The notes under the pieces were generated by a model. That model made no database searches. It worked only from the letters and a program-made list of their open reading frames with translations, and was not told the origin of the DNA. From positions 1 to 25,320 of IMG/VR virus record IMGVR_UViG_3300044703_000040: a DNA stretch of 25,320 nt; one strand, given 5' to 3'. Below are positions 3,910 to 24,369 of this stretch, piece by piece. Numbering within the stretch: the stretch's first letter is position 1; each line of letters opens with the position of its first letter. The position numbers and the translations under genes were made by a program. The DNA is from a virus.

Positions 3910-4599
3910 ATGACTAGGCACTACAACCCACCGCCCAACTGGCCGCCCCCGCCTCCTGGCTGGACCCCGCCCCAGGGCTGGAAGCCGGACCCGGCGTGGG
4001 GTCCTCCGCCGCCCGGCTGGCCGGTGTGGCAAGACCCCCCGAAGAAGGGCGGACCGCTCAAGGCGGCGGCGATCCTCATCGGCTGCATCTTCGTGGCAGG
4101 CACCGTCATCTCCGCACTCGCCGACCAGGGCGACTCCGGCGGCGTGGTGACCCGAGACACGACCGACGGCGGCGGAAGCCCCACGGCCCTGCCAGCGCCG
4201 ATGGGCACGGCGGTGCGCGACGGGAAGTTCGAGTTCACCGTGAAGTCCATGCGGTGCGGCGCGACCAGCGTCGGGACGGGTGGGGTCACCAAGAAGGCCC
4301 AGGGCAAGTACTGCCTGATCGACGTCGCCGTGGTCAACATTGGGGATCAGGCCCAGGCCATGTCGGCGAGCAACCAGTACCTGTACGACGCGGCCGAGCG
4401 TAGGTTCGACGCCGACTCCAGCGCCTCGTTCTACCTCGAGGAAGACGCGGGCCGGACGATCTATGAGGACATCAACCCCGGCAACTCGATCAACGGGACC
4501 CTGGTCTTCGATGTGCCGACGTCCGTCACCCCCGCGGTGATCGAGCTGCACGACTCCCTGTTCTCGGGGGGCACCAAGGTGGCGCTGCGCCCGTCCTAG
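3910..4599 (+). CDS. membrane-anchored DUF4352 protein with proline-rich N-terminus
   Basis: 229 aa, ATG 3910 with a GGGGGAG ribosome site 6 nt away. Residues 5-44 are a Pro/Trp-rich cytoplasmic stretch with PPGW repeats. Residues 52-70 (AAAILIGCIFVAGTVISALA) form one TM segment. A Gly/Thr linker leads to a DUF4352-like beta-sandwich from about 98 to 226: FEFTVKSMRCG (C116), YCLIDVAVVNIGDQAQ (C135), then SNQYLYDA, NPGNSINGTLVFDVP and IELHDSLFSGGTKVAL. The two Cys probably form a disulphide outside the cell. There is no lipobox Cys after the TM. DUF4352 proteins are frequent beside repressor genes in actinophage prophages, where a surface or exclusion function is suspected. It converges on the integrase gene with only 6 bp between the stops. 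Confidence 0.88.
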   Translation: MTRHYNPPPNWPPPPPGWTPPQGWKPDPAWGPPPPGWPVWQDPPKKGGPLKAAAILIGCIFVAGTVISALADQGDSGGVVTRDTTDGGGSPTALPAPMGTAVRDGKFEFTVKSMRCGATSVGTGGVTKKAQGKYCLIDVAVVNIGDQAQAMSASNQYLYDAAERRFDADSSASFYLEEDAGRTIYEDINPGNSINGTLVFDVPTSVTPAVIELHDSLFSGGTKVALRPS

Positions 4600-4605
4600 G
4601 CAGCG

Positions 4606-5760: not shown

Positions 5761-6020
5761 GGTCGCACCTTCTGGACGACGCCTCGCAGTATCCGTCGAT
5801 CTGGCGTTTGCCACACAAAGGGTTGACTATAGGTTGCGACCACAGGGCGCCCCATTGGAGCCCCTTCCAGGGTTCCTGTCATCTTGAAAACGCCACCCCT
5901 GACGCCGGTGGCACAATCTCCACACCAGACATCGCCCTGCCACGCATAGAGAACCACTGCGTCGGTGTTGCAGTATTCGCAGATATCCCATTCCCAGTCG
6001 TCGATCAACCGACGCGCCAT
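5757..6020 (-). CDS. zinc-ribbon protein coupled to integrase
   Basis: 87 aa from ATG 6020 with GGAG 5 nt upstream. A CxxC-x15-CxxC pattern (C14, C17, C33, C36; ICEYCNTDAVVLYAWQGDVW then CGDC) marks a small zinc ribbon, followed by a beta-like tail with several aromatic residues. Its TGA overlaps the integrase GTG by 4 bp, so the two are translationally coupled. It might modulate recombination at the neighbouring attP or simply be a DNA-binding cargo gene. The local base composition (5800-6060) is visibly less GC-rich than the flanks. I recognise no named family beyond the zinc-ribbon pattern. Confidence 0.78.
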   Translation of the reverse strand: MARRLIDDWEWDICEYCNTDAVVLYAWQGDVWCGDCATGVRGGVFKMTGTLEGAPMGRPVVATYSQPFVWQTPDRRILRGVVQKVRP

Positions 6021-6033
6021 GATCGCTCCAATT

Positions 6034-6053
6034 GTTGCCTAATGTGTTGCCTA
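6034..6053. repeat. attP left arm-type sites (GTTGCCTA x2)
   Basis: GTTGCCTA at 6034-6041 and again at 6046-6053, phased 12 bp. A matching pair with the same phasing and orientation lies on the other side of the tRNA-like core, as expected for the N-terminal-domain binding sites of a tyrosine integrase. The pair lies 14-33 bp upstream of the ATG of the zinc-ribbon/integrase operon. Confidence 0.68.
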
Positions 6054-6092
6054 GCCTACGCCGACGCACGTCGACGCGCGAGCCTTCAATAC

Positions 6093-6125
6093 GCCGCTGA
6101 CCTGGGACGATGTGCCGCTGACCTG
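6093..6125. repeat. direct repeat between left arm and core (GCCGCTGACCTG x2)
   Basis: GCCGCTGACCTG at 6093-6104 and 6114-6125, 21 bp apart (two helical turns). A partial copy, TGACCTGCA followed by GATACC, recurs right of the core at 6200-6216, matching TGACCTGCA...GATACC at 6119-6140 on the left. Spacing and place suit excisionase or accessory-factor binding sites in attP. The role is inferred. Confidence 0.6.
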
Positions 6126-6150
6126 CACCTTCATGATACCGCTCCCAGAA

Positions 6151-6195
6151 CTCATAATCCCTGGGTCGCGGGTTCGAGTCCCGCCCGCCTCACCA
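6151..6195 (+). other. attP: attP core: 3' half of a CAU-anticodon tRNA
   Basis: The 45-bp segment reads as the 3' part of a tRNA: anticodon loop CTCATAA (6151-6157, anticodon CAT), 3' anticodon stem TCCCT, 5-nt variable loop, T-arm GCGGG/TTCGAGT/CCCGC (6168-6184), 3' acceptor strand CCGCCTC, discriminator A, and encoded CCA (6193-6195). No D-arm or 5' acceptor strand precedes it, so it is not a gene. It is the identity segment by which integration restores the host tRNA (Met-type or Ile2). The exact crossover probably lies near the anticodon loop. Confidence 0.85.
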
Positions 6196-6245
6196 TCCGT
6201 GACCTGCAACGATACCACCTCCCGGGTCTCCTGACAGGACCGAGT

Positions 6246-6267
6246 GTTGCCAAAGGTGTAGCCAAAG
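6246..6267. repeat. attP right arm-type sites (GTTGCCAAAG / GTAGCCAAAG)
   Basis: GTTGCCAAAG at 6246-6255 and GTAGCCAAAG at 6258-6267, phased 12 bp, the same as the left pair and in the same orientation. The shared core is GTTGCC. Presence of both arms around one core shows that attP is not split into attL and attR. Confidence 0.66.
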
Positions 6268-6301
6268 TGCCCCAGAGGCGCCGCCGACGTACCCTGCGCG
6301 C

Positions 6302-6529
6302 ATGACCCTGACCTCCGCGGCAGCGAAGCGCGTGATGGCGGCCCTCGAGGTCTCGGACGAGGCCCACGGCTTCTACACCGTGCTTCACGACGCCGACTCC
6401 CGGCGGCCGGTGGGCTGGCGGTGCCGGTGCGGCGACGAGTACCTGAGCGATTCCGAGGAGGAGCGCACGCGGGAGCGCCGCCGGCACCGGGCGGCGATGG
6501 CCACGGTTGCCGTCGAGGGCTGCCTGTGA
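6302..6529 (+). CDS. small protein, unknown function (75 aa)
   Basis: ATG 6302, 35 bp right of the attP arm. No ribosome site is visible; TACCCT at 6290-6295 stands 6 nt before the ATG, so a leaderless transcript is possible, though no clear -35 is seen. The product has LTSAAAKRVMAALEVSDEAH, a strand-rich middle, RCRCGDEYL (two Cys only) and an Arg/Glu-rich helix SEEERTRERRRHRAAMATVA. No family is recognised. It is coupled by a GTGA overlap to the next gene, which supports both. Confidence 0.65.
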   Translation: MTLTSAAAKRVMAALEVSDEAHGFYTVLHDADSRRPVGWRCRCGDEYLSDSEEERTRERRRHRAAMATVAVEGCL

Positions 6530-6711
6530 CGCCCGCCAAGTACGTCCTGACCCGCCACGACGACGGCGCCTGGTACCGGGCCACCCTGCTCGACCAGTGG
6601 CGTACCGCGGAGGGGCGGTGGCGGTGCTCGATCATGTACTACGTCGGGGTGGGGGAGCAGTACAGCCGGGCAGTGTGGGCCGACGAGCTGCGACGGGCTA
6701 CGGACCCTTGA
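6526..6711 (+). CDS. small protein, unknown function (61 aa)
   Basis: GTG 6526 overlaps the preceding TGA (GTGA). The 61-aa product (TPAKYVLTRHDDGAWYRATL, then WRCSIMYYVGVGEQYSRAVW and ADELR) looks like one small beta-rich domain ending in a short helix. Its last 14 bp overlap tail-to-tail with the minus-strand 63-aa gene. Coupling to the 75-aa protein suggests a two-gene rightward unit expressed apart from the late operon, perhaps in the lysogen. Function unknown. Confidence 0.65.
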   Translation: MTPAKYVLTRHDDGAWYRATLLDQWRTAEGRWRCSIMYYVGVGEQYSRAVWADELRRATDP

Positions 6712-6889
6712 CGAGGACCCGCTGAAGGGCGGCTCGCTTCTCCTTTGCCTCCGTCCAGAGGCGGTCCCACTCTGCGAGGTTGCGTCCACTGAAGTTGGCA
6801 TGCGCCGCCTCGGCGGCGAAGCACTCGCGGCGCACCGTGAGGTACGCCTCTCGAAACCGGTCCAGTCGAGCTTGGCTGATGCGTGTCAT
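6698..6889 (-). CDS. small helical protein, unknown function (63 aa)
   Basis: ATG 6889, ending at 6698. The product is one long charged helical run (TRISQARLDRFREAYLTVRR, then ECFAAEAAHANFSGRNLAEW, DRLWTEAKEKRAALQRVL). No ribosome site stronger than AGAGAG touching the ATG is seen, so a leaderless start is possible. It lies beyond the late-operon terminator and so is probably separately transcribed, towards attP. It converges with the two rightward small genes. No family recognised. Confidence 0.58.
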   Translation of the reverse strand: MTRISQARLDRFREAYLTVRRECFAAEAAHANFSGRNLAEWDRLWTEAKEKRAALQRVLVKGP

Positions 6890-6938
6890 CTCTCTAGGGC
6901 AGTGTCTAGTGGAGCCAGAAGCAAGGACCGACACGCAC

Positions 6939-6984
6939 GAAACCGCCCCGCCCCCAGCCGTTAGGCCAGGAGCGGGGCGGTTTC
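6939..6984 (-). terminator. strong hairpin terminator at the end of the late operon
   Basis: Arms GAAACCGCCCCGC (6939-6951) and GCGGGGCGGTTTC (6972-6984) form a perfect 13-bp stem with a 20-nt loop; both strands end in GGTTTC. It lies 25 bp past the last late gene (stop at 7009). It would end leftward late transcription before the attP region and might also act on rightward transcripts. The T-tract is short (TTT). Confidence 0.82.
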
Positions 6985-7008
6985 GTCTGAGCCGCGGGGA
7001 AGGGCGGC

Positions 7009-7188
7009 TCAGGTGTCGCTGATGCGGGCGGGGACGGCGTAGCGCTTCACGGCGGCGATGCCTTGGCGGGCGGCGTCGCGGGTGCTGTAGGACTCGGAGG
7101 TGGCGACGATCTCCCCGTTGGGCGCGTGCAGGTTCCAGTGCCACCCGCCGGGTTTCTCGGCGAGGCTGAAACGCGGACGCTTGATCAC
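7009..7188 (-). CDS. DUF1508 (YegP/UPF0339-like) protein
   Basis: 59 aa from GTG 7188, which overlaps the holin stop (GTGA). A longer open frame from 7284 would lie inside the holin gene and is not used. The protein is a single DUF1508 unit: FSLAEKPGGWHWNLHAPNGE, IVATSESYSTRDAARQGIAA, VKRYAVPA. Family members fold as a small beta-alpha-beta unit, often duplicated; here there is only one copy. Their biochemical role is not settled. It is the last gene of the late operon, just before the terminator. Confidence 0.85.
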   Translation of the reverse strand: MIKRPRFSLAEKPGGWHWNLHAPNGEIVATSESYSTRDAARQGIAAVKRYAVPARISDT

Positions 7189-7478
7189 AGGTCGCCGCAG
7201 TCTGACCGGACCAGTGCCACGCCGTCGGCGTCGCGTGGTGCCGCCAGCGGTGTCACCTTGGCTCGCGCCTTGCGGGTCTGCCACAGGGGCACGAGGACGC
7301 CGACGACGGTGGAGACGGCGATCGCGAGGGCGCTGATCGCGTCGCCGGTGGAGGTGGCCTCCTCCTGGGTGAGGACGCCGGTGGCGACCAGGACGAGCAT
7401 GACGGCGCCGACGACGCCGACGATCTTCGCAGTGAGGCTGCCGGCGGCAAGGACCGGCTCGGGGCGGGGTTCGGGCAT
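7185..7478 (-). CDS. holin, two TM segments
   Basis: 97 aa from ATG 7478, preferred over ATG 7484 because AGGAG then has a 7-nt spacing. Two hydrophobic segments, about residues 18-36 (KIVGVVGAVMLVLVATGVLT) and 44-64 (GDAISALAIAVSTVVGVLVP), are joined by a short loop with acidic residues (QEEAT). A basic tail WQTRKARAKV follows. Size, topology and place beside an endolysin fit a class II-like holin, which forms lesions in the cytoplasmic membrane and sets lysis timing. The C-terminal 25 residues after the basic tail (LAAPRDADGVALVRSD) are less usual. Confidence 0.82.
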   Translation of the reverse strand: MPEPRPEPVLAAGSLTAKIVGVVGAVMLVLVATGVLTQEEATSTGDAISALAIAVSTVVGVLVPLWQTRKARAKVTPLAAPRDADGVALVRSDCGDL

Positions 7479-7480
7479 GG

Positions 7481-7837
7481 TCATGCTCCTGTCACTGAGA
7501 GACGTACTGTTGTCGCCGTCGTGGTGGAGTTGGAGAAGAGCGGCTGCATCTTGCAGCCGCAGATCCCGCTGAGCGACACCACTCCGGGGCCGAGGACCGT
7601 CATGTGCTTGCAGAAGCAACCGATCGGCCGCGGGGTGTTCACCTCGACCGGTTCGCCCTCCGCCAACAGGTCGCCGAGGTCGTCGGCAGTGAGGTCGAGG
7701 TCGTCCTCGTCCGTCCCCATGCCCTTCATGATCGACCTGTCGTGCGCCCGGCAGACGAACCGCCAGCGGCAGCGCGTGACGTACTGGTCGAGCAGGCAGA
7801 GGAACGCCGACCGCAGGCCGCAGACCATGGGGCTCAC
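7481..7837 (-). CDS. Cys-rich protein between endolysin and holin, unknown
   Basis: 118 aa from GTG 7837, overlapping the endolysin stop (GTGA); GC-rich third positions continue right up to this codon, supporting it over the internal ATGs at 7729 and 7720. Eight cysteines occur: C6, C14, C23, C29, then C74-x-C76 and C93-x-C95. The middle is acidic (GTDEDDLDLTADDLGDLLAE) and the end is Ser/Thr-rich. The CFC...CGC pair flanks a glycine/valine stretch (VLGPGVVSLSG). No family is recognised. It could be a metal-binding or disulphide-stabilised factor; its position suggests it is co-expressed for lysis. Confidence 0.78.
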   Translation of the reverse strand: MSPMVCGLRSAFLCLLDQYVTRCRWRFVCRAHDRSIMKGMGTDEDDLDLTADDLGDLLAEGEPVEVNTPRPIGCFCKHMTVLGPGVVSLSGICGCKMQPLFSNSTTTATTVRLSVTGA

Positions 7838-8556
7838 GACTTCTTCCCGAACGCGGCGACGTGGGCCCAGTCGTAGATGCGCCGCAGGGCGACCTCGACC
7901 GTGACCTGCTCGGGCTTCCCGGTCATGTTGGACTGGTAGTCCGCCGGGATGGTGATCTTGTCGGTGAGCTTCATCTCGAGCAGCTCCTTCAGGGGCGGCG
8001 CGGTGGGGACGGTGACGACGGCCGCCTTCTTGACGGCGGGCTTCTTCGCGGCGAGCTTCAGTGCTGGCTTGCTGGCCAGCGCGCGCATCGCGCGGGTGAC
8101 GTCGGCGGCGGTGACCCCGGAGGCGAGCTCCCAGTGCATCTGGTCCACCTTCGCGACCACGTAGTCCCCGCCCCAGTCGACGAGCCGTTTGCCGGCGGCG
8201 CGGTTGACCTCGTCGCGGATGCGCCGGCACTCGGCGACCTGGCGTGCGCTCATGCGCCGGACGCCGCGCGGCCACGAGGTGGCGTTGTAGTCCACGGCCG
8301 TGCCCGAGGCGTGGTTGGACCAGGTGTTCTGGCCGCGAGTGTTGCGGTAGGCGTAGCCCCAGTCGTCGGGTTCGCGGTGCCCGGCGGTGACGTCGACGTC
8401 GGCGACCCGCTTGTCGAGCTGCGTGCCGATCCACAGCAGGATCGGGGCGGCGAGAGGGCGTAGCGCGACCCGCACCCGCGTGCCGGGCACCGTGTACGTC
8501 TTGATCCCGAGCGCTGCTGCGCTGCCGACGAGCTGGCCGTTGTAGGACCGGGCCAT
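7834..8556 (-). CDS. endolysin, M15 (VanY-like) peptidase
   Basis: 240 aa from ATG 8556, overlapping the upstream TGA by one base (TGATG). The N-terminal catalytic domain (about residues 1-150) matches the peptidase M15 group: SNHASGTAVDYN carries H82 and D89, and DQMHWEL carries H141, the expected zinc ligands. Such enzymes cut peptide bonds in peptidoglycan stem or cross-bridges. A Lys/Ala-rich linker (about 160-185, KPALKLAAKKPAVKKAA) leads to a C-terminal region with LEMKLTDKITIPADYQ and EVALRRIYDWAHVAA. This might bind the wall, although I do not recognise a named binding module. No signal peptide, so export depends on the holin. Confidence 0.92.
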   Translation of the reverse strand: MARSYNGQLVGSAAALGIKTYTVPGTRVRVALRPLAAPILLWIGTQLDKRVADVDVTAGHREPDDWGYAYRNTRGQNTWSNHASGTAVDYNATSWPRGVRRMSARQVAECRRIRDEVNRAAGKRLVDWGGDYVVAKVDQMHWELASGVTAADVTRAMRALASKPALKLAAKKPAVKKAAVVTVPTAPPLKELLEMKLTDKITIPADYQSNMTGKPEQVTVEVALRRIYDWAHVAAFGKKS

Positions 8557-8825
8557 CAACGCGCTCCGTTCGTTAGTTCGCGCCGCACGCAGCGCTCCAC
8601 CTCGGTCAGCGTGTCGTTGGCGTGCAGGCGGGCGCAGTACGCCGCTAGCACCGCCACCTCGCGGGTGACCCGCCCACCGCGCCGGTTCTCCTCGGCGATG
8701 CCGTTGAGCCGCACCACCCCGTAGGTCATGACGACGAGCATCGCCAGGACCGCGGCGACCAGCATCAGGACGAACGCGACCCGCACGCGGCGGGTCCGCC
8801 GGGACAGCACCGGGGCCTCGTTCAC
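8556..8825 (-). CDS. single-TM membrane protein in lysis cassette
   Basis: 89 aa from GTG 8825 in a GTGA overlap. An N-terminal basic patch (LSRRTRRVRV) is followed by one TM segment at about residues 16-38 (AFVLMLVAAVLAMLVVMTYG), then a charged helix with two Cys (AAYCARL and VERCVRREL). The predicted topology is N-in with the C-terminus outside. Placed directly before the endolysin, it may be a second holin-like or lysis-accessory protein, as single-TM proteins often accompany holins in actinophages. The role is inferred. Confidence 0.78.
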   Translation of the reverse strand: MNEAPVLSRRTRRVRVAFVLMLVAAVLAMLVVMTYGVVRLNGIAEENRRGGRVTREVAVLAAYCARLHANDTLTEVERCVRRELTNGAR

Positions 8826-9265
8826 ACCGGCCCGTCCTTGTCGAGCACCCGGCGGGCCTCGAGCATCCCCTTCAGGTCGATCAGCATCGCTCGCACCGCC
8901 TTGAGCTCGGTGCACACGGCGTCGTGGCGGTCGTCCTGGCGGCGCACCATCTCCGCGTGGTGGGACTCCAGGTGGGTCTCCAGCGCAGAGAAGTCGATGC
9001 GCCCGGACACGATCTCCTCCAGGTGACCAGCGCGTTCTTCGACCAGCGCGAGCCGCCCCTCCAGCAGCTCCCGCTTGGACCGTTCCTCGGCGAGCTCCCG
9101 GTCCCGGTCCTGCAGAAACCCTTCGAGGTTCTCGATCCGGTGACGCTGGTCGGAGACCGTGCTGCGCAGGTCGCTGGCACGGAACGCGGCGTAGGCGGCG
9201 CCGAGCAGGATCGCCAGGGTGATGACGCCGCCGACGATGCCGAACGCTGTCTGGAGGGCGTTCAT
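8822..9265 (-). CDS. TM-anchored coiled-coil protein
   Basis: 147 aa from ATG 9265, overlapping the tail-fibre-like gene by ATGA. One TM at about residues 7-29 (AFGIVGGVITLAILLGAAYA), then a coiled coil from about 34 to 110 (DLRSTVSDQRHRIENLEGFL, QDRDRELAEERSKRELLEGR, LALVEERAGHLEEI) and a second helical part (AVCTELKAVRAMLIDLKGML). The architecture resembles spanin-like or holin-regulating membrane proteins. In a host without a classical outer membrane, a spanin role is uncertain. It is coupled to the single-TM protein that follows. Confidence 0.8.
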   Translation of the reverse strand: MNALQTAFGIVGGVITLAILLGAAYAAFRASDLRSTVSDQRHRIENLEGFLQDRDRELAEERSKRELLEGRLALVEERAGHLEEIVSGRIDFSALETHLESHHAEMVRRQDDRHDAVCTELKAVRAMLIDLKGMLEARRVLDKDGPV

Positions 9266-9747
9266 GCGGTCTGGAAGGTGCCGCTGACCGCAATGATCGT
9301 GCCGGCGGGCATTGCCGGGGTGCCGGACACCCACAGGGCGTCGTTGATGGAGAAGGCGCCAACGGAGGATGCGCCAGGGGCGATGCGACCAGTGCCGTTG
9401 AGCTCGACCGTGCTGGAGTACTGGACGGTGACGAGCTCCTGCATCCCGAGGCTTGCCGACGCCACCGGCAGGCTGAGGATGTACGTCCCCGTGCCGGCCG
9501 TGGTCGTGGAGCCGGTCGTAATGGTGGCCTTGAACCTGCACGTCTTGCCGATGATGTTGTAGTTCCCGGCGATCGACCCGTTGCCGATAGCTGGGTTGGT
9601 GCCTGCCGCCGATTGCCACGACGGCGTGTACGCGGTGTAGGTGATGGGGTCCCCGAAGGCGAGGAAGTTGTCTCGTATGTGAGTGTTGAGGGTTGCGGCC
9701 GTGATGATCTCCCCCGCCACGTACGTGCGGGGGGCGGTCCAGGCCAT
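9262..9747 (-). CDS. small tail-fibre-like minor tail protein
   Basis: 161 aa from ATG 9747. The N-terminus MAWTAPRTYVAGEIITAATL, then NTHIRDNFLAFGDP, is a signature seen at the start of many phage tail or head fibre proteins. The rest is strand-rich (AGNYNIIGKTCRFKATITTG, GTGTYILSLPVASASLGM, GTGRIAPGASSVGAFSI), fitting a trimeric beta-structured tip. It sits at the distal end of the tail module, just before the lysis cassette. It may contribute to receptor recognition. Confidence 0.85.
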   Translation of the reverse strand: MAWTAPRTYVAGEIITAATLNTHIRDNFLAFGDPITYTAYTPSWQSAAGTNPAIGNGSIAGNYNIIGKTCRFKATITTGSTTTAGTGTYILSLPVASASLGMQELVTVQYSSTVELNGTGRIAPGASSVGAFSINDALWVSGTPAMPAGTIIAVSGTFQTA

Positions 9748-9748
9748 G

Positions 9749-10228
9749 TCAGCGGCGCCTTGCTCGAGTCAACGCAACACCCAGCGCCTGCTCCAGCTTC
9801 GGCGGAGTCGCGACGTCGTTGGCGTCGTTCTCTATCACCAGGTCGACCACCGACTCGGTGGGATGCCAGCTCTGGTGACGCTCCGGTCGAGCCTGCACCG
9901 CCGACTCGATCTGGTCGCGACTGCTGGGCCACACGGTGCGCCGCCATGACCCGCCGACGGCGGCATTGCCGCAGTAGTTGCACAGGAACCGCAGGTCGGA
10001 CTCCGACGCGAGCTGCGCCCCGCTGCAATCTGGGCAGTCCACGATCCAGCGGCCGTGGTCCAGGCGCACCGGCAGCGGACTGCCGGCGTCGACGCCGCGG
10101 TCTTCCAGGTTGAGGGGTTGCGGTGCCTGCCACCACATGCGCGGGGCGAGCTCCGCCTGCCGCTCGACCGGCAAGGTGGGGGCCTGCCCGTAGTTCCTGT
10201 ACGACGCGGCGTCACGCAGCCGAGGCAT
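9749..10228 (-). CDS. zinc-ribbon protein in the tail module
   Basis: 159 aa from ATG 10228 with GGGGAGGG upstream. A CxxC-x14-CxxC zinc-ribbon pattern (C65, C68, C83, C86; VDCPDCSGAQLASESDLRFL then CNYCG) is surrounded by aromatic-rich segments (RMWWQAPQPLNLEDRG before, SWRRTVWPSS after). The C-terminal part is helical (VVDLVIENDANDV...KLEQALGVALTRARRR). No family name is certain. Its place between the tail-tip protein and the fibre-like protein suggests a structural or assembly role at the tail tip. Confidence 0.8.
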   Translation of the reverse strand: MPRLRDAASYRNYGQAPTLPVERQAELAPRMWWQAPQPLNLEDRGVDAGSPLPVRLDHGRWIVDCPDCSGAQLASESDLRFLCNYCGNAAVGGSWRRTVWPSSRDQIESAVQARPERHQSWHPTESVVDLVIENDANDVATPPKLEQALGVALTRARRR

Positions 10229-10242
10229 GAAAGGCCCTCCCC

Positions 10243-12600
10243 TCAGTAGGCAAGCCGGGTGGTGGAGTCGAGGACCGAGTAGGTGGCGGAGTCCAGCACC
10301 CACACGTCGGACTGGACTCCCGGCGAGGCGTTGAAGCTCATCGTCCACGTGGTGTCACCGAGGGTCTCGGTGTAGCCCTCAACGTTGAGGTCCACGCTCG
10401 GCGACGGTGCCTGGGACGGCAGCCCGGTGACGAGGAACCGTGCACCGAGGTCGGCTGCGATGACGGTGGTGATGAGCGCCGGCAGCTCGTGCAGCGCGAC
10501 CGAGACTCCGGGGCACCGGCGCGACGGGGTCCCGTACGTGTTGACCCGCCACGTCGCAGCGTCCAGCACCTCGTTGTCCGAGGTGGTCACCAGCTCCATC
10601 GTGTCGACGTAGGAGTCGAACTCGTCGATCGAGGACTGGTTGACCACCCGGACCGTCGCGCCGCCCTGCCGGGAGGCGGTGAGGTCGTTGACCAACCCGA
10701 AGTCGTCCTCGACGAATTGCAGGTCCCCGCCCACCTCGGCGTTGGCGGCGTTCAACGTGAAGGCGACGGCCTGGTTGTAGCGGTGGGACCGGGCATGGAA
10801 CACCAGTCGCCCGGTGGTGTCGAAGAACAACAGACCGTTCTCGGTGCGGGTGATGCGTTGCAGCACGTCCAACGGCGACTGACCGGTGGTGTCGATGTGG
10901 GCGATCGAGGTCGACAGACCGGTTTCGGCCGACACGCTCGCGGCGGGGATGCCGGCGTACCTTGCGTACCGGACGACCCGCCCGTTGGAGGACTCCCCGG
11001 CGAAGCCCGTCGTCTGCACGTCGTCGTGCTCACCGACGCGTGCCAGGGAGAGCTCCTTGGCGTAGACCGCCGCGTGGGAGATCGCTCCGTTGAACAGGAA
11101 GCCACCGGTCCAGCCGCCGACCTGCACTGTGGAATAGCTGCTGATCTTGCTGGAAACGCCGGTGGAGCCGACAAGAGACCCGTCGATGTACAGGCGGTTG
11201 TCGTTGCCTGCGGTGTTCTGCGTGAACGCCACCCGATGGGTGTGGCTGTCGGCGAGGTTGACCGCGCCGACCAGGTTGAAGGCGTTGACACCGGCGGAGT
11301 TGTACCGGCGGGCCTGGATGAACCCGGAGGCGTCCAGACCGATCTCGAGGCGGTCCGGGCTGGTGGCACCGAAGCTGACCCGAATGATGCCCTGCTCGGC
11401 GACCGTGTCAGCGTTGAACGAGGCGACCACGGACAGGCCTGCAGTGGTCACCACGCTGGCGTTTGTCGTGGCGGTCAAGTACTTGCCGTTGCTCGGGTCG
11501 ACGCGCGCGAAGATCGGTGCGGAAAGTCCGTCGGTGGGTGCGCCGACCGCCTGGCCGAACGTCAGGGTCCCTCCGGAGCCGAGCTGGGTGACCGTCAAGT
11601 TTGGGTAGCCACTGGTCGCAACCTGTCCGGCCTGCGTCGACCCCTCCGGGTCACCCATGGGCCAGTACATCTTCGGGACGTCGGAGAGCAGCTCCTGCTC
11701 CACCACGGAGCGGAACTTGGCCTTGCGACCGAGCCGGCTCAGTCGATCCAGGCAGGAGATCGACGCCTCCGCGTACGCGGCGCTGCCGCCGGGCCACGTC
11801 TGGGGCCACTCCTCCACGTACCCGTCGAAGCGCCAGTACAGGGAAGGTGGGTCTGTGGTGAAGGTGGTGTTCGCACCGGTCTCGTCGACCCTGACCTCAT
11901 CCACCCAGCACTGTTGTCCGGCGGTCGCCGCCCCGGCGAGCTGCACGTACAGCGTGGTCGACACCGTGAGGGCGGTCCAGGTCAAGCTGATCTGCGCGAA
12001 GGCACCCTTGACGCTGGTGGCGGTCCCCGATATCGGGCCTGCCACGATCAGCCGCACGTCCGGGTGGCCAGCGGGGACCCACACCCACGCGGTCGCCGTG
12101 TAGGACCGGCCGATCGTGAGACTCGACAGGGGCGTGGTCGCGTACTGCACGTTGGCTGCCGAGGCCACCCATGTGATCAGCAGCCCCTTGGTGCCATCGT
12201 GGGGGTGGGTGGTGGAGGAGGCCAGGGTGGGTGCCGTGCCGGCGGTGTTCAGCGGCACCCAGTCCGCGACGGAGGTTTCCATGCTGGCCTGGTTCGCTGT
12301 CAGGTAGTTCCCCGGCCAGTCCGCCGCGCTCGGGTACCGCACCCCGACCCGGATGCGGCGCCCCTTCTTCACATACGGGTAGTACGGCGAGGACGCGTTG
12401 CCGGCGGTGAAGCGCCCGTCGGCGTTGTCCAGCACCATCGAGCAGCGACCGGGGGAGACGTCAGAGAACTGGTCCTGCCGGCCCCTGGTGATCTGCAACG
12501 TCCCGTCCCGCACATAGGCGGTGATGTCACGCCACATGGGTGTCGTGGCTCCTGGGGTGGACGCGAACGCGCACTCCACCCGAGGGATCCACGCGCTCAC
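10243..12600 (-). CDS. 785-aa minor tail / tail-tip protein with LamG-like domain
   Basis: GTG 12600 overlaps the tape-measure stop (GTGA). The N-terminal segment (WRDITAYVRDGTLQITRGRQ, ...GRCSMVLDNADGRFT, ...YYPYVKKGRRIRVGVRY, about residues 20-90) is typical of siphophage minor tail proteins that follow the tape measure. A first lectin-like beta-sandwich covers about 95-245, and a LamG/concanavalin-like domain about 330-530 (GLSVVASFNADTVAEQGIIR ... DNRLYIDGSLVGSTG ... GAISHAAVYAKELSLARVGE). The C-terminal part (about 550-785) resembles a baseplate-hub fold. It is the only large protein between tape measure and lysis, so it probably combines the distal-tail, hub and receptor-binding roles. 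Confidence 0.87.
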   Translation of the reverse strand: MSAWIPRVECAFASTPGATTPMWRDITAYVRDGTLQITRGRQDQFSDVSPGRCSMVLDNADGRFTAGNASSPYYPYVKKGRRIRVGVRYPSAADWPGNYLTANQASMETSVADWVPLNTAGTAPTLASSTTHPHDGTKGLLITWVASAANVQYATTPLSSLTIGRSYTATAWVWVPAGHPDVRLIVAGPISGTATSVKGAFAQISLTWTALTVSTTLYVQLAGAATAGQQCWVDEVRVDETGANTTFTTDPPSLYWRFDGYVEEWPQTWPGGSAAYAEASISCLDRLSRLGRKAKFRSVVEQELLSDVPKMYWPMGDPEGSTQAGQVATSGYPNLTVTQLGSGGTLTFGQAVGAPTDGLSAPIFARVDPSNGKYLTATTNASVVTTAGLSVVASFNADTVAEQGIIRVSFGATSPDRLEIGLDASGFIQARRYNSAGVNAFNLVGAVNLADSHTHRVAFTQNTAGNDNRLYIDGSLVGSTGVSSKISSYSTVQVGGWTGGFLFNGAISHAAVYAKELSLARVGEHDDVQTTGFAGESSNGRVVRYARYAGIPAASVSAETGLSTSIAHIDTTGQSPLDVLQRITRTENGLLFFDTTGRLVFHARSHRYNQAVAFTLNAANAEVGGDLQFVEDDFGLVNDLTASRQGGATVRVVNQSSIDEFDSYVDTMELVTTSDNEVLDAATWRVNTYGTPSRRCPGVSVALHELPALITTVIAADLGARFLVTGLPSQAPSPSVDLNVEGYTETLGDTTWTMSFNASPGVQSDVWVLDSATYSVLDSTTRLAY

Positions 12601-18399: not shown

Positions 18400-19197
18400 C
18401 TATGCCACCACAGGGGCGAGCAGGTACGGCTCCAGCATCTTCTCCGCCCGCCACACCGCCAGCCCCATCCCGGGCAGCTCCGCGAGCTCCTCGGAGCCGG
18501 GGACGGGCAGCGCCGTCGCACCGCGCTGGGTCTCCCACAGCGTCTTGACGATCATCAGCGTCGCGGCACGGATGGACGCCGGCACCACCTGCCGGCCGGC
18601 GACGTAAGTGACGGTCAGGGGATAGGTGCTCCACGCCTGCCGGGTGGGGAGCCGGATCATCCCCGCTTCGGCGTCCAGGTAGGTGGCGGCTACGTCGTAG
18701 GTGGCGGTGTACCCGTACGCGCCGGCGATCGAGGTCACCGACAGGACCGGGGCGTGGCGCAGCATCAACAGCTCACCGGTGGTGTTGACGACCTCGGTGA
18801 CGGTGCGGCGCACGACGGGCCCGACCCGGGACTCGACCCACTCCGAGGCGGCGTCGATGAACAGCCGCAGCTCTTCGTCGTTCGTGCTGCGAGTGATGTT
18901 CAGGTGCGTCTTGGCGTCGCTCAGGGACACGATGCCGGTGGGGCCCGGGTCGACGTCGAAGGTGCCGGTGTGCCGGGAGGTAGGGGTCGTGGTGACGACG
19001 GTGTACTCGTGCCGTCCGGGCTGTTCGGTGGGGTAGTCCAGACGCAGGACACCCGGCGCGGTCACCGTGAGCGCCACCACCTGTGGGGTGCCGTCGGGTC
19101 GAGTGATGGTGCATTCGTGGGTCGCCGGCGTGGTCAGCGTGTCGGTGTCGTCGCGAACCTCGAAGCCGATGGAGTAGACGTCGCCGAGGTCGATCAC
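18400..19197 (-). CDS. head-tail connector (gp6-like adaptor) with N-terminal Ig-like domain
   Basis: 265 aa from GTG 19197 in a GTGA overlap. The N-terminal ~90 residues look like an Ig/fibronectin-type beta-sandwich (YSIGFEVRDDTDTLTTPATH ... GRHEYTVVTTTPTSRHTGTF). From about residue 95, the gp6-like adaptor domain follows: IVSLSDAKTHLNITRSTNDE, ELRLFIDAASEWVESRVGPV, then strands (LMLRHAPVLSVTSIAG) and helices (VPASIRAATLMIVKTLWETQ). This protein docks below the portal. The extra N-terminal sandwich could decorate the neck. Confidence 0.85.
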   Translation of the reverse strand: MIDLGDVYSIGFEVRDDTDTLTTPATHECTITRPDGTPQVVALTVTAPGVLRLDYPTEQPGRHEYTVVTTTPTSRHTGTFDVDPGPTGIVSLSDAKTHLNITRSTNDEELRLFIDAASEWVESRVGPVVRRTVTEVVNTTGELLMLRHAPVLSVTSIAGAYGYTATYDVAATYLDAEAGMIRLPTRQAWSTYPLTVTYVAGRQVVPASIRAATLMIVKTLWETQRGATALPVPGSEELAELPGMGLAVWRAEKMLEPYLLAPVVA

Positions 19198-20291
19198 GCG
19201 GGCACCTCCCGGATGGTGGCGTGCGCGACGGAGACCTGACGGATGGACCCGCGGACCAATGCCCCACCGATGACGACGCTGCCTGCGGGGGAGGTCAGCG
19301 TGACCGTGCCGGGGGCGCCGGCGATGGTGACGTTGCGGGTCGTGGTGACGGCTCCGGCCAGCGCGGCCAGGGTCAACGCGGACACCGGTCCGGAGACGGT
19401 GACGTTCGTCACGGAGTCCGCGGTCACGGTTCCCGCGGGAGCGGCGACCGTCAGCGCCGCGGCGGGTCCGACGACGGTGGCGTTGCGGGTGGCCACCACC
19501 GTGCCGGCCGGTGCGGTGAGGATGAGCCCCGGCACGCCGCCGTAGTAGCCGGCGCCGTAGCCGCCCTCGCCGTAGTTGGGGTCGACCAGGACGACGGTGA
19601 CGTCGGGGGAGGTCGCCGCCACCGTGCCCGCTGGCGCGGTGAGGGTGAGGGCGGCGGCGGGACCAGCGACGGTGACGTTGCCCGCCGAGGTCGTCGCCAC
19701 CGAACCGGCCGGGGCCGTAAGTGTGAGGCTGGACAGAACCCCGACGATGGTCTTGTCGCCGGAGGCGGTGACGTCGCCGCCGGACCAGTCGTCGAAACGT
19801 ACGGCGGCGCTGCCGAAGGATCGGATGCCGACCTTGCGCTGCGTCGAACCGCCGGGCAGCGCCGTGTCGGTGGCGCTGCACACCTCGACGCCGTTGCGGT
19901 AGCCCTTGATCGCCGACCCTACGGCGGTGATCTTGATGACGTCACCGGCGACCAGCGTGACCGTGTGCGCCGCCCCCAGCGCCGTGATGGTGCCCGCGAC
20001 GCGCTTGGACAGCTGAAGGGTCGTCCCGTTGTACGTCAGCCGGTACCAGTTTGAATCGGTGCCGTCGCAGCGGGCGATGACAGCCATGTTTGTCCCACCG
20101 AATCCGGTGAGCGTGGCCTGAGAGAAGCAGTCCGCCGTGGCCGCCGAGGTGGCCCAGACGTTGACGTAGGTCACCGCGCCCGGAGCAGCCGCTTGGTTTG
20201 CCACGATCGTGTGCGTGGCGATGATCGTGGTCCAGTTCGGACCGAGGTCAGCGGCGTCCGCGCGGTTGAAGTCGTCGATGAACGTCGCCAC
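19194..20291 (-). CDS. lectin-like protein with six-fold LTLTAPAG repeats
   Basis: 365 aa from GTG 20291, immediately after the TAA of the beta-helix gene. Residues about 4-172 look like a concanavalin/LamG-type sandwich (FIDDFNRADAADLGPNW ... NMAVIARCDGTDSNWYRLTY ... GYRNGVEVCSATDTALPGG ... RFDDWSGGD). Residues about 187-342 hold six degenerate copies of a 20-26-aa unit, LTLTAPAGTV-x(5-9)-NVTVAGPAAA; one spacer carries a Gly/Tyr-rich loop (PNYGEGGYGAGYYGG). The N-domain suggests sugar binding. Lying in the head module, it may be a head fibre or surface decoration, though a tail function is possible. No signal peptide. Confidence 0.82.
   Translation of the reverse strand: MATFIDDFNRADAADLGPNWTTIIATHTIVANQAAAPGAVTYVNVWATSAATADCFSQATLTGFGGTNMAVIARCDGTDSNWYRLTYNGTTLQLSKRVAGTITALGAAHTVTLVAGDVIKITAVGSAIKGYRNGVEVCSATDTALPGGSTQRKVGIRSFGSAAVRFDDWSGGDVTASGDKTIVGVLSSLTLTAPAGSVATTSAGNVTVAGPAAALTLTAPAGTVAATSPDVTVVLVDPNYGEGGYGAGYYGGVPGLILTAPAGTVVATRNATVVGPAAALTVAAPAGTVTADSVTNVTVSGPVSALTLAALAGAVTTTRNVTIAGAPGTVTLTSPAGSVVIGGALVRGSIRQVSVAHATIREVPA
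19266..19727 (-). repeat. coding tandem repeat (six LTLTAPAG units)
   Basis: Encodes the six degenerate 20-26-aa units at residues about 189-342 of the lectin-like protein. The consensus is L-T-L-T-A-P-A-G-[ST]-V followed by N-V-T-V-x-G-P. The units match at protein level and are diverged in DNA, so the array is old or under selection for variation. Confidence 0.75.
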
Positions 20292-21728
20292 TTAGACCTC
20301 CGCGTCCCACTCCAGGGTGAGGACTGCCGCGGCGGCGGGAGCGACCGCGAAGACGACGGTGATGTTGGTGGCGTCCGCGGTCACATAGTGCTTCTCCGCT
20401 GCTGCGGCTGAGCCCGGTGTCACTCGCACCGACCGGGGCCTCTCCGACAGGCCGTGCGGCCAAGAGACCGTCTCCGCGACCCCATCGCCAGTGAAGGTCT
20501 GGCGTCCGGCGTCAGAGGTGGCGTAGTACACGCCGGCGTGGGTGATGAACCGGTTGTCCTTGACCGTGTAGATGTCGCCGGCCGAGCGGTCCAGGCCCAC
20601 GTGCAGCCGGTTCATGTTGCGGCCGACGTTGCCGGTCGCAACGAGGTTCTTCACGAACCCCGTGCCGCCGGCTCCCAACACCTTCTCGAAGAGGGCCCGG
20701 TACCCGGCTTGGGACGCGTAGTCGTAGACGTTGTTGCCGATGAAGTTGACGTTGCGCACCGTCGGGCCCGACGCCGGGTTGGGGTTGGCGACGTTGAACT
20801 TCAACACCGAGTGGGTGTCGTCGTCGAAGGCCAGGTTGTAGAAGGAGTTGCCGATGACCCCGACGTTCTCGATCATCGAGTTGCCTGCGTTGCAGTGCAA
20901 CTCGATGTGCGGTCCGCGCACTCCCTCGATGGTGTTCCCAACGATCAGGATGTTGTACATCGCTGACCCGGAGCCGGTTTGCTCGACGTAGATGTCACGA
21001 CCCGTGGTGGCCGGCAGCTGGCCGTTGGCCCCGGTCCACATGTGACAGCCCTCGATCTTGAACGGACCGGCCTTGACGTGCACCTGAGCCGTCAGGCCCT
21101 CGCGGATCTGTGAGCGAAACACCTTGTTGTCTGCGCCGCTGTTCAGCAGCACCACACCCTGGGTGTTCTGTCCGAGGATGCAGAGGTCCACGTGGCTGTT
21201 CTGACCGGCCAGCTCCACCGCCCGTGACGCGCCGCGCCACACCTGGCACCACTGGATGTAGTTGCGCCGGCCGAACGTCTTCACCGCCGCGGTCGCCAGG
21301 TTCGCGCCGTCCACGACCAGACCCCACATCGAGGCCCCGGTCTGCCCGGACACGCTGGAGGCGGAGTCCGACCCCAGCCGCACCACCGAGGCCATCGCCC
21401 CGGTCGCCCGGATGATCGACCCGCGGGCCGGCGGACCGGTCACCACCGAGTAGTCGATCCCGGTGCCCCGCAGCAGCACCCCACCGGGCACCACGATCTC
21501 CGAGGAGACCAGGTACGCCCCAGGCGGGAAGAACACCTCCCCACCAGTCCCCGCGACCGCCGCGATCGCGGCGTTCACCGCGGCCGTGTCGTCCGCTACA
21601 CCGTTGCCCAGGGCGCCGTGGGATCGGACGTTCACGCTTCCGGTCGTACGGACATCGAAGGCCGTCAGGGCAGCGTTGAGCGCGACGTCCCAGCCGGCCG
21701 ACCCCGTCACCGGCAGCTCGAGCGGCAC
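20292..21728 (-). CDS. right-handed beta-helix (pectate-lyase-like) surface protein
   Basis: 478 aa from GTG 21728, 4 nt after the previous stop. The motif SHGALGNGVADDTAAVNAAI, then GGEVFFPPGAYLVSSEIVVP and GVLLRGTG (about residues 35-90), is the signature of Pectate_lyase_3/tailspike helices. It is followed by coil repeats rich in Asn and aliphatics to about 415 (NYIQWCQVWRG, NSHVDLCILGQN, NILIVGNTIEG, NVGVIGNSFYN, NVNFIGNNVYD, NLVATGNVGRN). A C-terminal small sandwich (TFTGDGVAETVSWPHGLSER ... ITVVFAVAPAAAAVLTLEW) resembles fibre tips. It probably binds or cleaves host surface glycans. Catalytic residues cannot be assigned from sequence alone. The setting inside the head module is unusual. 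Confidence 0.88.
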   Translation of the reverse strand: MPLELPVTGSAGWDVALNAALTAFDVRTTGSVNVRSHGALGNGVADDTAAVNAAIAAVAGTGGEVFFPPGAYLVSSEIVVPGGVLLRGTGIDYSVVTGPPARGSIIRATGAMASVVRLGSDSASSVSGQTGASMWGLVVDGANLATAAVKTFGRRNYIQWCQVWRGASRAVELAGQNSHVDLCILGQNTQGVVLLNSGADNKVFRSQIREGLTAQVHVKAGPFKIEGCHMWTGANGQLPATTGRDIYVEQTGSGSAMYNILIVGNTIEGVRGPHIELHCNAGNSMIENVGVIGNSFYNLAFDDDTHSVLKFNVANPNPASGPTVRNVNFIGNNVYDYASQAGYRALFEKVLGAGGTGFVKNLVATGNVGRNMNRLHVGLDRSAGDIYTVKDNRFITHAGVYYATSDAGRQTFTGDGVAETVSWPHGLSERPRSVRVTPGSAAAAEKHYVTADATNITVVFAVAPAAAAVLTLEWDAEV

Positions 21729-21732
21729 CGGA

Positions 21733-22170
21733 CTACGCCGTCGAGACGGTCAGCAGACCCGAGGCATTCAGTTGCAGCGTGAACGTTCCGGCGGACGAGG
21801 ACTCGTCCACCCCGAAGTCCCACACGCACAGGATCGGCGACGTCGCCGCGGTGCCGGTGTCGATGTAGAACACCGCCTTGCGGGCAGTGATCGTCGACCC
21901 TGACCACGACGGGTCGACGGCGGCGTCGAGCGCCGTGGTGTTGGTGCCCGCGGTGTAGGTCACCGTCTTCGTCGCCAACGTCGCACCACCGGCCGTGTAG
22001 CCGGTGCCGGTCACCTCGTTCGTCACGTCGGACTTGTACTTGTGAGTGTCCTGGTCGTACGCGTAGGCGCTCGTGGTGAGCAGCACCTTCACTGTCGCCG
22101 TGTCGAAGTCGACCTCGGCGTTCGCCAGGGCCTCCCCGAGCTTTCCGGGGACGGAGGCGGTAACAGCCAT
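21733..22170 (-). CDS. 145-aa putative head decoration or fibre-base protein
   Basis: ATG 22170 with GGGAGGG upstream, 3 nt after the LuxR stop. It is strand-rich: VPGKLGEALANAEVDFDTAT, VKVLLTTSAYAYDQDTHKY, EVTGTGYTAGGATLATKTVT, SGSTITARKAVFYIDTGTAA, ILCVWDFGVDESSSAGTFTL. This resembles a family of about 130-150-aa phage proteins often found near head or fibre genes, whose role is not settled. Lying before the beta-helix and lectin genes, it may anchor them to the capsid. That is inference. Confidence 0.8.
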   Translation of the reverse strand: MAVTASVPGKLGEALANAEVDFDTATVKVLLTTSAYAYDQDTHKYKSDVTNEVTGTGYTAGGATLATKTVTYTAGTNTTALDAAVDPSWSGSTITARKAVFYIDTGTAATSPILCVWDFGVDESSSAGTFTLQLNASGLLTVSTA

Positions 22171-22173
22171 GTC

Positions 22174-22581
22174 TCAGCCCTCCCGGGCACTCAAAGGAAG
22201 ATCGACCCCGCGGCGGCGGGCCTCGGTCAGCACCACCGCCGCCGGTGAGCTCACCAGCCCCATCCGGCGGCCGACGTGGCGCAGCGTCAGGCGGACGTTC
22301 GAGACCGGCACGTCGAGGCGCTGCGCCACCTGCGCCTGCGAACTGCCCGCCGCCAATGCCCGCAGCACCGCCACCTCGTGACCGGTCAGGTCCAGGCGCT
22401 GCGCCGGCGTGCGGTCGAACGTCGGGGGGACGTCGAGCACCGCCGCCAGCTCCGCCAGCCACAGCGGCCAGTCCGCCGGTGCAGCCACCGCCGCACGGGA
22501 CACCATGCGCACCGCCTCGGCGTTGGCCTGGCGCAGCGCCGTTAACGTGGAGAGCAGCGACTCCGCCAGCTCACACACCAC
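22174..22581 (-). CDS. LuxR/GerE-type HTH protein in the head module
   Basis: 135 aa from GTG 22581 (GTG 22578 also possible), with a G-rich but weak ribosome site. Residues about 63-125 match the GerE HTH: DLTGHEVAVLRALAAGSSQA, then QVAQRLDVPVSNVRLTLRHV, then GRRMGLVSSPAAVVLTEARR. The SNVRLTLRHVGRRMG stretch is the recognition helix and what follows. The N-terminal half is a short helical part (LSTLTALRQANAEAVRMVSR) with no response-regulator receiver or autoinducer-binding domain. It lies just past a terminator hairpin, leading the decoration/beta-helix/lectin block, so it may control those genes or late transcription. Confidence 0.83.
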   Translation of the reverse strand: MVCELAESLLSTLTALRQANAEAVRMVSRAAVAAPADWPLWLAELAAVLDVPPTFDRTPAQRLDLTGHEVAVLRALAAGSSQAQVAQRLDVPVSNVRLTLRHVGRRMGLVSSPAAVVLTEARRRGVDLPLSAREG

Positions 22582-22603: not shown

Positions 22604-22643
22604 CCCCAGCCCCGCCAGAACGGGGGCTGCGACGGGGCTGGGG
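22604..22643 (-). terminator. hairpin terminator after the capsid genes
   Basis: Arms CCCCAGCCCCG (22604-22614) and CGGGGCTGGGG (22633-22643) give an 11-bp perfect stem with an 18-nt loop. On the minus strand it is followed by TTTCACC. It lies between the 114-aa gene (stop 22650) and the LuxR-type gene, so it should reduce transcription past the capsid. No promoter is visible in the 22 bp before the next gene. Confidence 0.75.
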
Positions 22644-22649
22644 GCCTGG

Positions 22650-22994
22650 TCAGTCCTTGTGCAGGGAATTGACGACGCTCTCGGCCTTCTTCTCCGCCGC
22701 CGCTGCGACCTTGTCGTGCTCGGCCTTGAGCTTGTCGATCGCGGCGTCAGAGGTGTCACCCTCATCCGTCGCGGCCAACCCGAGCTCCGCCCGCTTCTCC
22801 GCGTCCACGGCGGACACCGCCTGCTGGGCGAACTGCGTCTTGGCTGCTGCTACCGCAGCGTCCTTGTCGCCGATGATCTCCGGGTTGTGCTGGTCCGGGG
22901 AACCGTCGGGCTTGAGAGAGAGCATCGCCACGCGGTCGTGGTCACCCTCGTTCGCCACCGGGTTGACCGGCTTCTCTTCCTTCGTCGCTGCCAT
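22650..22994 (-). CDS. 114-aa protein downstream of capsid, unknown
   Basis: ATG 22994 with AAAGGGG upstream, 37 bp past the capsid stop. It is highly charged and helical (AAVAAAKTQFAQQAVSAVDA, EKRAELGLAATDEGDTSDAA, IDKLKAEHDKVAAAAEKKAE), with an N-terminal KPVNPVANEGDHDRVAMLSL. No family is recognised. Position and abundance (before the terminator) suggest a capsid-associated or scaffold-like role. Its transcript would be as abundant as the capsid's. Confidence 0.78.
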   Translation of the reverse strand: MAATKEEKPVNPVANEGDHDRVAMLSLKPDGSPDQHNPEIIGDKDAAVAAAKTQFAQQAVSAVDAEKRAELGLAATDEGDTSDAAIDKLKAEHDKVAAAAEKKAESVVNSLHKD

Positions 22995-23031: not shown

Positions 23032-24294
23032 TTACAGCTGGGCGAGGGCCTTGTAGGCGTTCGCGTCCTGCACCAGGCCGTCGGCCCGGTCGAATGCGAT
23101 GAACCCGACCTGTCCAAATTCGGCGAACCGCTCGTCGAGTCGGATCAGCTCGAAGGCCTTGACCAGGCGGATGACGTACCCGGCTTCGAAGTCGCCGTAC
23201 AGCACCGACTTGACCCCGGTCGCGGGGACGGCCATGTCCTGGTTGACGACGTAGGGGGAACCGGCGAGCAGGTTCGGCATGTCGGCCGAGGTCGACACCT
23301 GGAACAGGTACTCGCCGGTGCCTGCGGCCTTCAGCTTCCGCACACCCTTCAGCGCGGTGTCGGAGAGCATGAACTTGGAGCGCTCGTTGCGGTAGGCCGG
23401 GTCGACCGAGTGCTGAAGGTCGATCAGCTCGTCCGCGGTGATCGCCGTGGCGCTGGCGGCAGTCACGCCGGTGGTCGCGCCGGTGACAATGCCCTGCGGC
23501 TGCGCCGTTCCGGTGCCGGTCGTGAAGTGCTGGTTGTGGATGCGCCCGAGCCGCTCGGCGAACTTGCGGCGCAGGAACCCCTCCGCGTCGAGCCAGTCCA
23601 CGTCCTGGAGGAACTCCAGCGAGACCCGGACGAGCTTGGAGGTGTACTTGTACGCCCCGAGCTGTGCCGTGCCCAGCGTGAGGTCCTGCTCCGTGGCGGC
23701 CGTGTTCTCCGCCAGCAGCGCACCCACGTTGCCGGTGTCGTCGTTGGTGGGCCACGGCAGCGGCGCCCCGGTGGAGGTGTTCAGCACCTGCGCGACCTGC
23801 TGCACGGCCCCGTAGGCCTTCATCCGCTCGACGATCTGCTGGCGGAAGCCCTCGGGCACGAGGTAACCACCGGCGGTGGTGGTGCCGATGCCCTGCGCGG
23901 CGCGGATCTCCTTGGGGTCGCTCTTGACGAACCCTGAGCGCAACGCGGCTCGCTGCTCGCGGTCCAGCTCGGTCATCCCGTTCTGGACGAAGATCTTGAA
24001 CGCCTCGGCGTATATCTCGGCCTCGGACCGGTTGTCCGGGTCGTCGCCGCCGCCGGGCGCGGGGCTGACGACACCGGTCCGGTCGACCCGATCGTTCTCC
24101 TCGCCCCGCTTGGCGTGCCGCTTGCGCAGCTCGATCTCCGCGTCGGTGTCGTCGAACGCCTTCTCCAGGCGCTCGTAGGTCTGCCGCTCCTCGGCGGAGA
24201 GGGGTCGGCCGGCGGCCTCGGCGGAGTCGATGAGCTCCGTCATCTGGCTCCAGGTGTTGTTCCGCTGCTCGACGAGCTGCGTGGTGGTGGGCAT
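23032..24294 (-). CDS. HK97-type major capsid protein with delta-domain
   Basis: 420 aa from ATG 24294 with AAAGGA at the right spacing; an in-frame ATG 24300 has no spacing and ATG 24324 lies before the ribosome site. Residues about 1-75 are a coiled-coil delta-domain scaffold (QLVEQRNNTWSQMTELIDSA ... YERLEKAFDDTDAEIELRKR). The coat begins near residue 130 (GTTTAGGYLVPEGFRQQIVE) and has the usual HK97 pattern: TSKLVRVSLEFLQDVDWLDA, FAERLGRIHNQHFTTGTGTA, QPQGIVTGATTG, and YGDFEAGYVIRLVKAFELIR. The upstream ClpP-like protease should cut off the delta-domain. High expression is supported by the terminator soon after. Confidence 0.97.
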   Translation of the reverse strand: MPTTTQLVEQRNNTWSQMTELIDSAEAAGRPLSAEERQTYERLEKAFDDTDAEIELRKRHAKRGEENDRVDRTGVVSPAPGGGDDPDNRSEAEIYAEAFKIFVQNGMTELDREQRAALRSGFVKSDPKEIRAAQGIGTTTAGGYLVPEGFRQQIVERMKAYGAVQQVAQVLNTSTGAPLPWPTNDDTGNVGALLAENTAATEQDLTLGTAQLGAYKYTSKLVRVSLEFLQDVDWLDAEGFLRRKFAERLGRIHNQHFTTGTGTAQPQGIVTGATTGVTAASATAITADELIDLQHSVDPAYRNERSKFMLSDTALKGVRKLKAAGTGEYLFQVSTSADMPNLLAGSPYVVNQDMAVPATGVKSVLYGDFEAGYVIRLVKAFELIRLDERFAEFGQVGFIAFDRADGLVQDANAYKALAQL

Positions 24295-24369
24295 GCGCAT
24301 TCCTTTCGTGAGCATGCGGATCACCCGCGCAGGACAGTCCCGGCGGGAGGTTTGGTGGGTGGATCTAAA

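Follow-up and report, generated by a model that had tools for sequence, protein, structure and literature searches.

The locus described here raises the question whether four genes located between the capsid and the connector gene of a phage encode appendages of the head, whether these are accessory to the virion, and whether they stand under a regulator of their own. The window, i.e. the whole stretch of DNA that was analyzed, comprises 25,320 bases of an IMG/VR-type virus record and derives from a temperate, long-tailed phage. It encodes a tyrosine integrase and a YqaJ/RecE-type exonuclease, and the genes of the HK97-type capsid, the ClpP-like protease, the tail tube and the tape measure are all located on the minus strand. 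Since the tail-tip protein matches Streptomyces phages and the GC content is high, the host probably belongs to the Actinomycetota; a GTDB scan with the capsid protein returned remote prophages only, with identities of 44% or less. Read 5' to 3', the order is protease, capsid, 114-aa protein, hairpin, HTH protein, 145-aa protein, beta-helix protein, phrog_2804/repeat protein and connector. A four-gene block between capsid and connector, inside the head module, had been reported in the initial annotation, and the four open reading frames are indeed found there on the minus strand, with the amendment that a gene for a 114-aa protein additionally separates the capsid gene from the hairpin. The features are the following:

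23032-24324, minus strand: HK97-fold major capsid protein, given as context (PF05065, E 1.6e-59; phrog_10)
22650-22994, minus strand: acidic 114-aa protein of the capsid unit (75-100% identity in L009 and L011-L015)
22604-22643, minus strand: GC-rich hairpin at the end of the capsid unit (fold of the region -43 kcal/mol, z -1.7)
22174-22581, minus strand: 135-aa protein with a C-terminal LuxR/GerE HTH (PF00196, E 2.6e-6)
21733-22170, minus strand: 145-aa phrog_644 protein, proposed appendage anchor or arm (phrog_644, E 4.8e-30)
20292-21728, minus strand: beta-helix (pectate-lyase-like) protein of 478 aa, candidate adhesin or depolymerase (PF12708, E 3.5e-14)
19194-20291, minus strand: 365-aa protein with a phrog_2804 N-terminal domain and six hydrophobic beta-repeats (phrog_2804, E 4e-14)
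19800-21220, no strand: trough of divergence from L009, covering the beta-helix body and the N-terminal domain of the next gene (sliding identity)
18400-19197, minus strand: head-tail connector, given as context (phrog_442, E 2.4e-24; PF05135)

Family matches and codon-position GC identify all four reading frames as real genes. The LuxR-type label of the first gene stands, with 27.4 bits for the GerE family against a Pfam cut-off of 23.5, and the NarL HTH is matched in the PDB (E 0.0017). The third-position GC of this gene is 0.90 and resembles that of its neighbours, which likewise argues for a real gene. Residues 1-64 of the protein gave no match in Pfam and PHROG searches, and a sensor, receiver or autoinducer domain is lacking. 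Chance reading frames or an assembly artefact, which a metagenomic fragment might bring with it, are refuted and carry next to no probability, as the independent contig L009 harbors all four genes in identical order, codon-position GC is that of genes, and phrog_644 is under purifying selection.

L009 is the nearest viral contig, with identities of 99.5% for the capsid, 100% for the 114-aa protein and 99% for the connector, followed by relatives whose capsids are 67-78% identical. The block is absent from five near relatives whose junction can be read (L011, L012, L014, L015 and L016; L010 and L013 end too early); there the connector comes after the capsid-unit gene, with one small ORF between the two in L015. 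The 114-aa protein is kept in block-less relatives. Gene order thus shows a block that is present or absent as a unit. Within the head module, window and L009 share 97-99% DNA identity outside a single trough of about 1.4 kb (from about 21220 to 19800), in which identity is 60-75%. This trough spans residues 168-478 of the beta-helix protein and approximately residues 1-165 of the repeat protein, whereas residues 1-167 of the former and the C-terminal repeats of the latter are at least 97% identical. Between the same two genomes, dN/dS amounts to 0.01 for the capsid, 0.09 for the 145-aa protein, 0.56 for the repeat protein, 0.6 for the beta-helix protein and about 0.9 for the HTH gene, few changes underlying this last value. 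The tract, seen in this one genome pair, resembles the exchangeable parts of receptor-binding proteins, and the pattern is as expected if exchanged parts face the host and kept parts hold the virion. Gain and loss would affect the cassette as a whole, and recombination in the conserved N-terminus of the beta-helix protein and in the repeat tail would exchange the parts that face the receptor.

Regulation is a separate matter. According to the initial annotation, a terminator precedes the block, which was held to be under its own regulator. The hairpin itself is strong, but it has no T run and belongs to the capsid unit. Since block-less L011, L012 and L015 possess equivalent hairpins, of the same design and different sequence, 3' of the 114-aa gene, the hairpin closes the capsid unit, and its interpretation as the mark of an independent unit was rejected. 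It may function as a terminator or attenuator and probably sets capsid dosage. The intergenic gaps measure 3 nt (HTH/145-aa), 4 nt (145-aa/beta-helix) and 0 nt (beta-helix/repeat protein), and the connector start overlaps the repeat-protein stop by 4 nt, which indicates that the HTH gene heads an operon continuing into the neck genes. With an operon that extends into the connector and equivalent hairpins in relatives devoid of the block, a regulator of the block's own is unsupported. The HTH protein, for which no private target is apparent, would at most regulate the late neck-tail operon, and would be no switch for the three proteins alone. A role of the LuxR gene as a general companion was likewise rejected: L009 is the sole other viral contig carrying it, and the arrangement of anchor and adhesin occurs without it. 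Neither the HTH nor the beta-helix protein revealed close phage relatives in the phage collection.

A block that is led by an HTH gene found with it alone, directly after a hairpin and in a phage equipped with a tyrosine integrase, might also be a LuxR-led moron that is expressed in the lysogen for lysogenic conversion and contributes nothing to the virion. This is very improbable, as the genes share the strand of the connector and tail genes and are translationally coupled to them, and as no sigma-70-like promoter site was found on this strand, to which actinobacterial promoters need not conform. Furthermore, phrog_644 relatives occur in structural modules, phrog_2804 is annotated as a virion structural protein, and no signal peptides were evident by eye in the block proteins. 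The block is a real, well-defined accessory adhesion cassette; the following paragraphs focus on where in the virion its products might reside.

The 145-aa protein is central to this question. Its match to phrog_644 covers residues 1-139, and members of the family occur in 81 phage records and in at least 555 stretches of viral contigs; 57 of them, when aligned, share 11 invariant columns. The structure model predicted with this alignment (pLDDT 94.8) agrees with the beta-rich character first ascribed to the protein. The protein has one convincing match only in the PDB, Bxb1 gp31, the "tail wing arm" (9d93_Ra; Foldseek probability 1.00, TM 0.70 for the target and 0.53 for the query, E 0.0098), which is also the top match of a profile search through the whole PDB (E 0.043) and reaches E 3e-6 in a small set. 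The match is modest and suggests a related fold, not the same protein. Matches in a library of viral models are to a protein of mycobacteriophage Onyinye, to a structural protein encoded by Agrobacterium phage 7-7-1 and to segments of "tail-collar fibre" proteins. The 7-7-1 protein (7-7-1_000107, L278:3287-4795) contains a phrog_644-like domain by fold, which a very weak profile match places at the C-terminus.

The similarity to Bxb1 leads to the chief rival of a head location, namely that genes of the head module encode appendages of the tail, such as "tail wings" or side fibres. In Bxb1, not only the anchor fold but also the order of arm, small gene and distal protein (gp31-gp32-gp33) resembles the window, even though gp31 is located on the tail tip, is encoded after the tail genes and has 106 aa instead of 145. 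Members of the family are found among tail or lysis genes in Gordonia, Rhodococcus and other phages as well as in Bxb1, and away from the capsid in two MCP relatives (L017 and L040); P3-like and P0001-like pairs, P0001 being the repeat protein, occur in tail-type cassettes too (L270, L272). Given the Gordonia phages and Bxb1 with gp31 on its tail tip, gene position may mislead. Nevertheless, in 42 of 87 loci, many of which are near duplicates and not independent events, the phrog_644 gene follows the end of a capsid gene at a distance below 900 bp, in most cases below 20 bp. The capsid-adjacent loci include the podovirus-like MiniFlayer, which has no long tail, and at least three capsid families (phrog_10, phrog_267 and Phage_cap_E) are found upstream of phrog_644. 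In addition, the window already encodes, after the tape measure, the large tail-tip protein and the small fibre that had been assigned to it. Together with the phiCbK parallel described below, this renders a tail location somewhat unlikely, and the block proteins are likely to sit on the head or neck, as far as gene content and order can tell.

The two larger proteins would form the distal part. For the beta-helix protein the earlier assignment holds: an N-terminal Pectate_lyase_3-like motif of PF12708 is present, and 2pyg and tailspike chains are matched in the PDB. From this family and from matches to epimerases, lyases and tailspikes, one might conclude that the protein is mainly an enzyme, a capsule depolymerase for which the rest of the block is merely the mount. 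We consider this unlikely, as the match is limited to the first 70-80 residues and no catalytic residues are assignable; moreover, the predicted model (pLDDT 53) is too poor for judging an active-site groove. A beta-helix as the usual partner of the anchor was tried and rejected: none of the 145 downstream proteins in 85 other phrog_644 loci is detectably related to this protein (P0002). The "lectin-like repeat protein" of the initial annotation retains its repeats, six similar units read by eye in the C-terminal part, whereas its lectin label is an inference: no lectin family passed the Pfam cut-off (DUF7257 stays below threshold), and a PDB profile search found no lectin fold. What the N-terminal domain matches is phrog_2804, "virion structural protein". 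Sugar binding by these two proteins is probable. Another contig, L271, presents the order protease, capsid, 121-aa protein, phrog_240 "head protein", a P0001-like protein (38% identity) and phrog_442 connector (41% identical to P0006), devoid of HTH and beta-helix genes, and represents a second, independent head-module case, with the block of phrog_240 and P0001-like protein at 4598-9874. In L273, a related domain is encoded between portal and capsid.

The initial annotation knew of no described system of this composition, a claim that does not hold, as the gp75-gp76 region of phage phiCbK and the adsorption module of MiniFlayer are comparable in make-up and place. The phiCbK genes run from scaffold, capsid and minor capsid protein through a terminator to gp70-74, followed by gp75, gp76 and, further on, the head-tail adaptor. 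The unannotated gp75 is a phrog_644 homologue (E 7e-57) directly before gp76, a Laminin_G_3 protein (gp75-gp76 at L279:9059-17949). As in the window, a phrog_644 gene thus directly precedes an adhesin between capsid, with terminator, and adaptor. According to the genome paper of 2012, the head-filament proteins of phiCbK lacked conclusive identification; gp76 was regarded as the best candidate and was undetected in the virion (PMC3556154), which refers to the open-access literature, so that later identifications are possible. The phiCbK locus differs from the window in its five genes between terminator and gp75 and in gp76 itself, a single Gly-rich lectin-domain protein of 2,799 aa, and it contains neither beta-helix nor LuxR gene; in place of a giant Gly-rich ConA-lectin filament protein, the window encodes the 478-aa beta-helix and the 365-aa repeat protein. 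Among the arguments for placing the products on head or neck, the analogy with phiCbK carries most weight. Conversely, the comparison makes gp75 a concrete candidate for the head-filament base of phiCbK.

In MiniFlayer (gp6-gp9), the phrog_644 homologue gp6 comes right after the capsid and is followed by a Laminin_G_3 protein and the head-to-tail adaptor (PMC10690885). A putative adsorption module was proposed by the authors, who observed short fibres gripping the neck of the helper (PMC10690885). MiniFlayer is, unlike the phage of the window, a podovirus-like satellite with an adhesin of 1,376 aa and without beta-helix or LuxR gene. A Laminin_G_3 protein is also found downstream of phrog_644 in L106 and L165. 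A large, similarly organized group of metagenomic phages (L101, L106, L112-L118, L120, L121, L123, L125-L138, L154, L165 and L167), some of which may be satellites, has the order scaffold, capsid, phrog_644, protein of about 70 aa, Laminin-G type protein of 1,100-2,100 aa, 111-aa protein and adaptor. By sequence comparison, the arrangement is recurrent and not unique. Unexpectedly, the block draws on the same anchor family as the Bxb1 tail wing, and so do the filament locus of phiCbK and the adsorption module of MiniFlayer.

Other appendages are alike in principle. The neck whiskers of lactococcal phages consist of a conserved base of approximately 180 residues and variable beta-helix or CBM ends, and the neck passage structure of 936 and P335 phages is, like the block, accessory, present or absent, with a conserved base and an exchangeable glycan-facing end; it is non-essential (PMC6669499, PMC4759559). 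Each whisker is, however, a single protein with a BppU-like base and a coiled coil, encoded upstream of mtp; general Pfam and PHROG searches of the block gave no match to such a base or to a trimeric coiled coil. The head spikes of the Rhodobacter GTA bind capsule polysaccharide (PMC7296036); here, the working principle of head fibres contacting the capsule first is alike, whereas folds and genes differ. Adhesion by head fibres is documented as well for 7-7-1, which carries capsid fibres.

The reading that we favor as somewhat probable is that of an accessory adhesion cassette whose products form head or head-neck fibres or whiskers for a reversible first grip on the host, as proposed for the phiCbK filament and observed with the neck whiskers of lactococcal phages. 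The phrog_644 protein would act as a small beta-rich anchor or arm docking on capsid or neck; the beta-helix and repeat proteins would be the distal, host-facing parts which reversibly bind surface or matrix polysaccharide, perhaps also cut by the beta-helix protein; and the tail tip would then make the committed contact. Virion location and the sequence of adsorption steps are what we infer. An accessory, probably glycan-directed surface block, as first suspected, is thus retained in view of its absence from five relatives, the swapped host-facing parts and the anchor relatives beside capsid genes, and loses its own regulator and its claim to be without a described counterpart. In a broader sense, and rather doubtfully, phrog_644 might be a general docking arm that mounts exchangeable adhesins on capsid, neck or tail, a device that MiniFlayer and the head filament of phiCbK would share with the window; on the head, the version found here would carry a depolymerase-like beta-helix, with a phage LuxR-type switch in the lead.

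A widespread, unnamed family is hereby linked to capsid-side adhesion modules in unrelated phages. If the proposed function is true, the small anchor gene would allow annotators to recognize head or neck adhesins, and host-range exchange would be worth seeking in the head module, besides the tail. Some further genes deserve mention. The tail-tip protein (window 10243-12600) belongs to phrog_5313, with relatives in Streptomyces phages, and its residues 108-215 show a sub-threshold match to CBM_4_9 (E 0.0011); the tail may thus also carry sugar binding. A Peptidase_M15 endolysin gene is located after the tail genes (window 7834-8559). Finally, in L010 an HNH-endonuclease-like ORF (10263-10748) lies between the capsid gene and the gene of the 114-aa capsid-unit protein.
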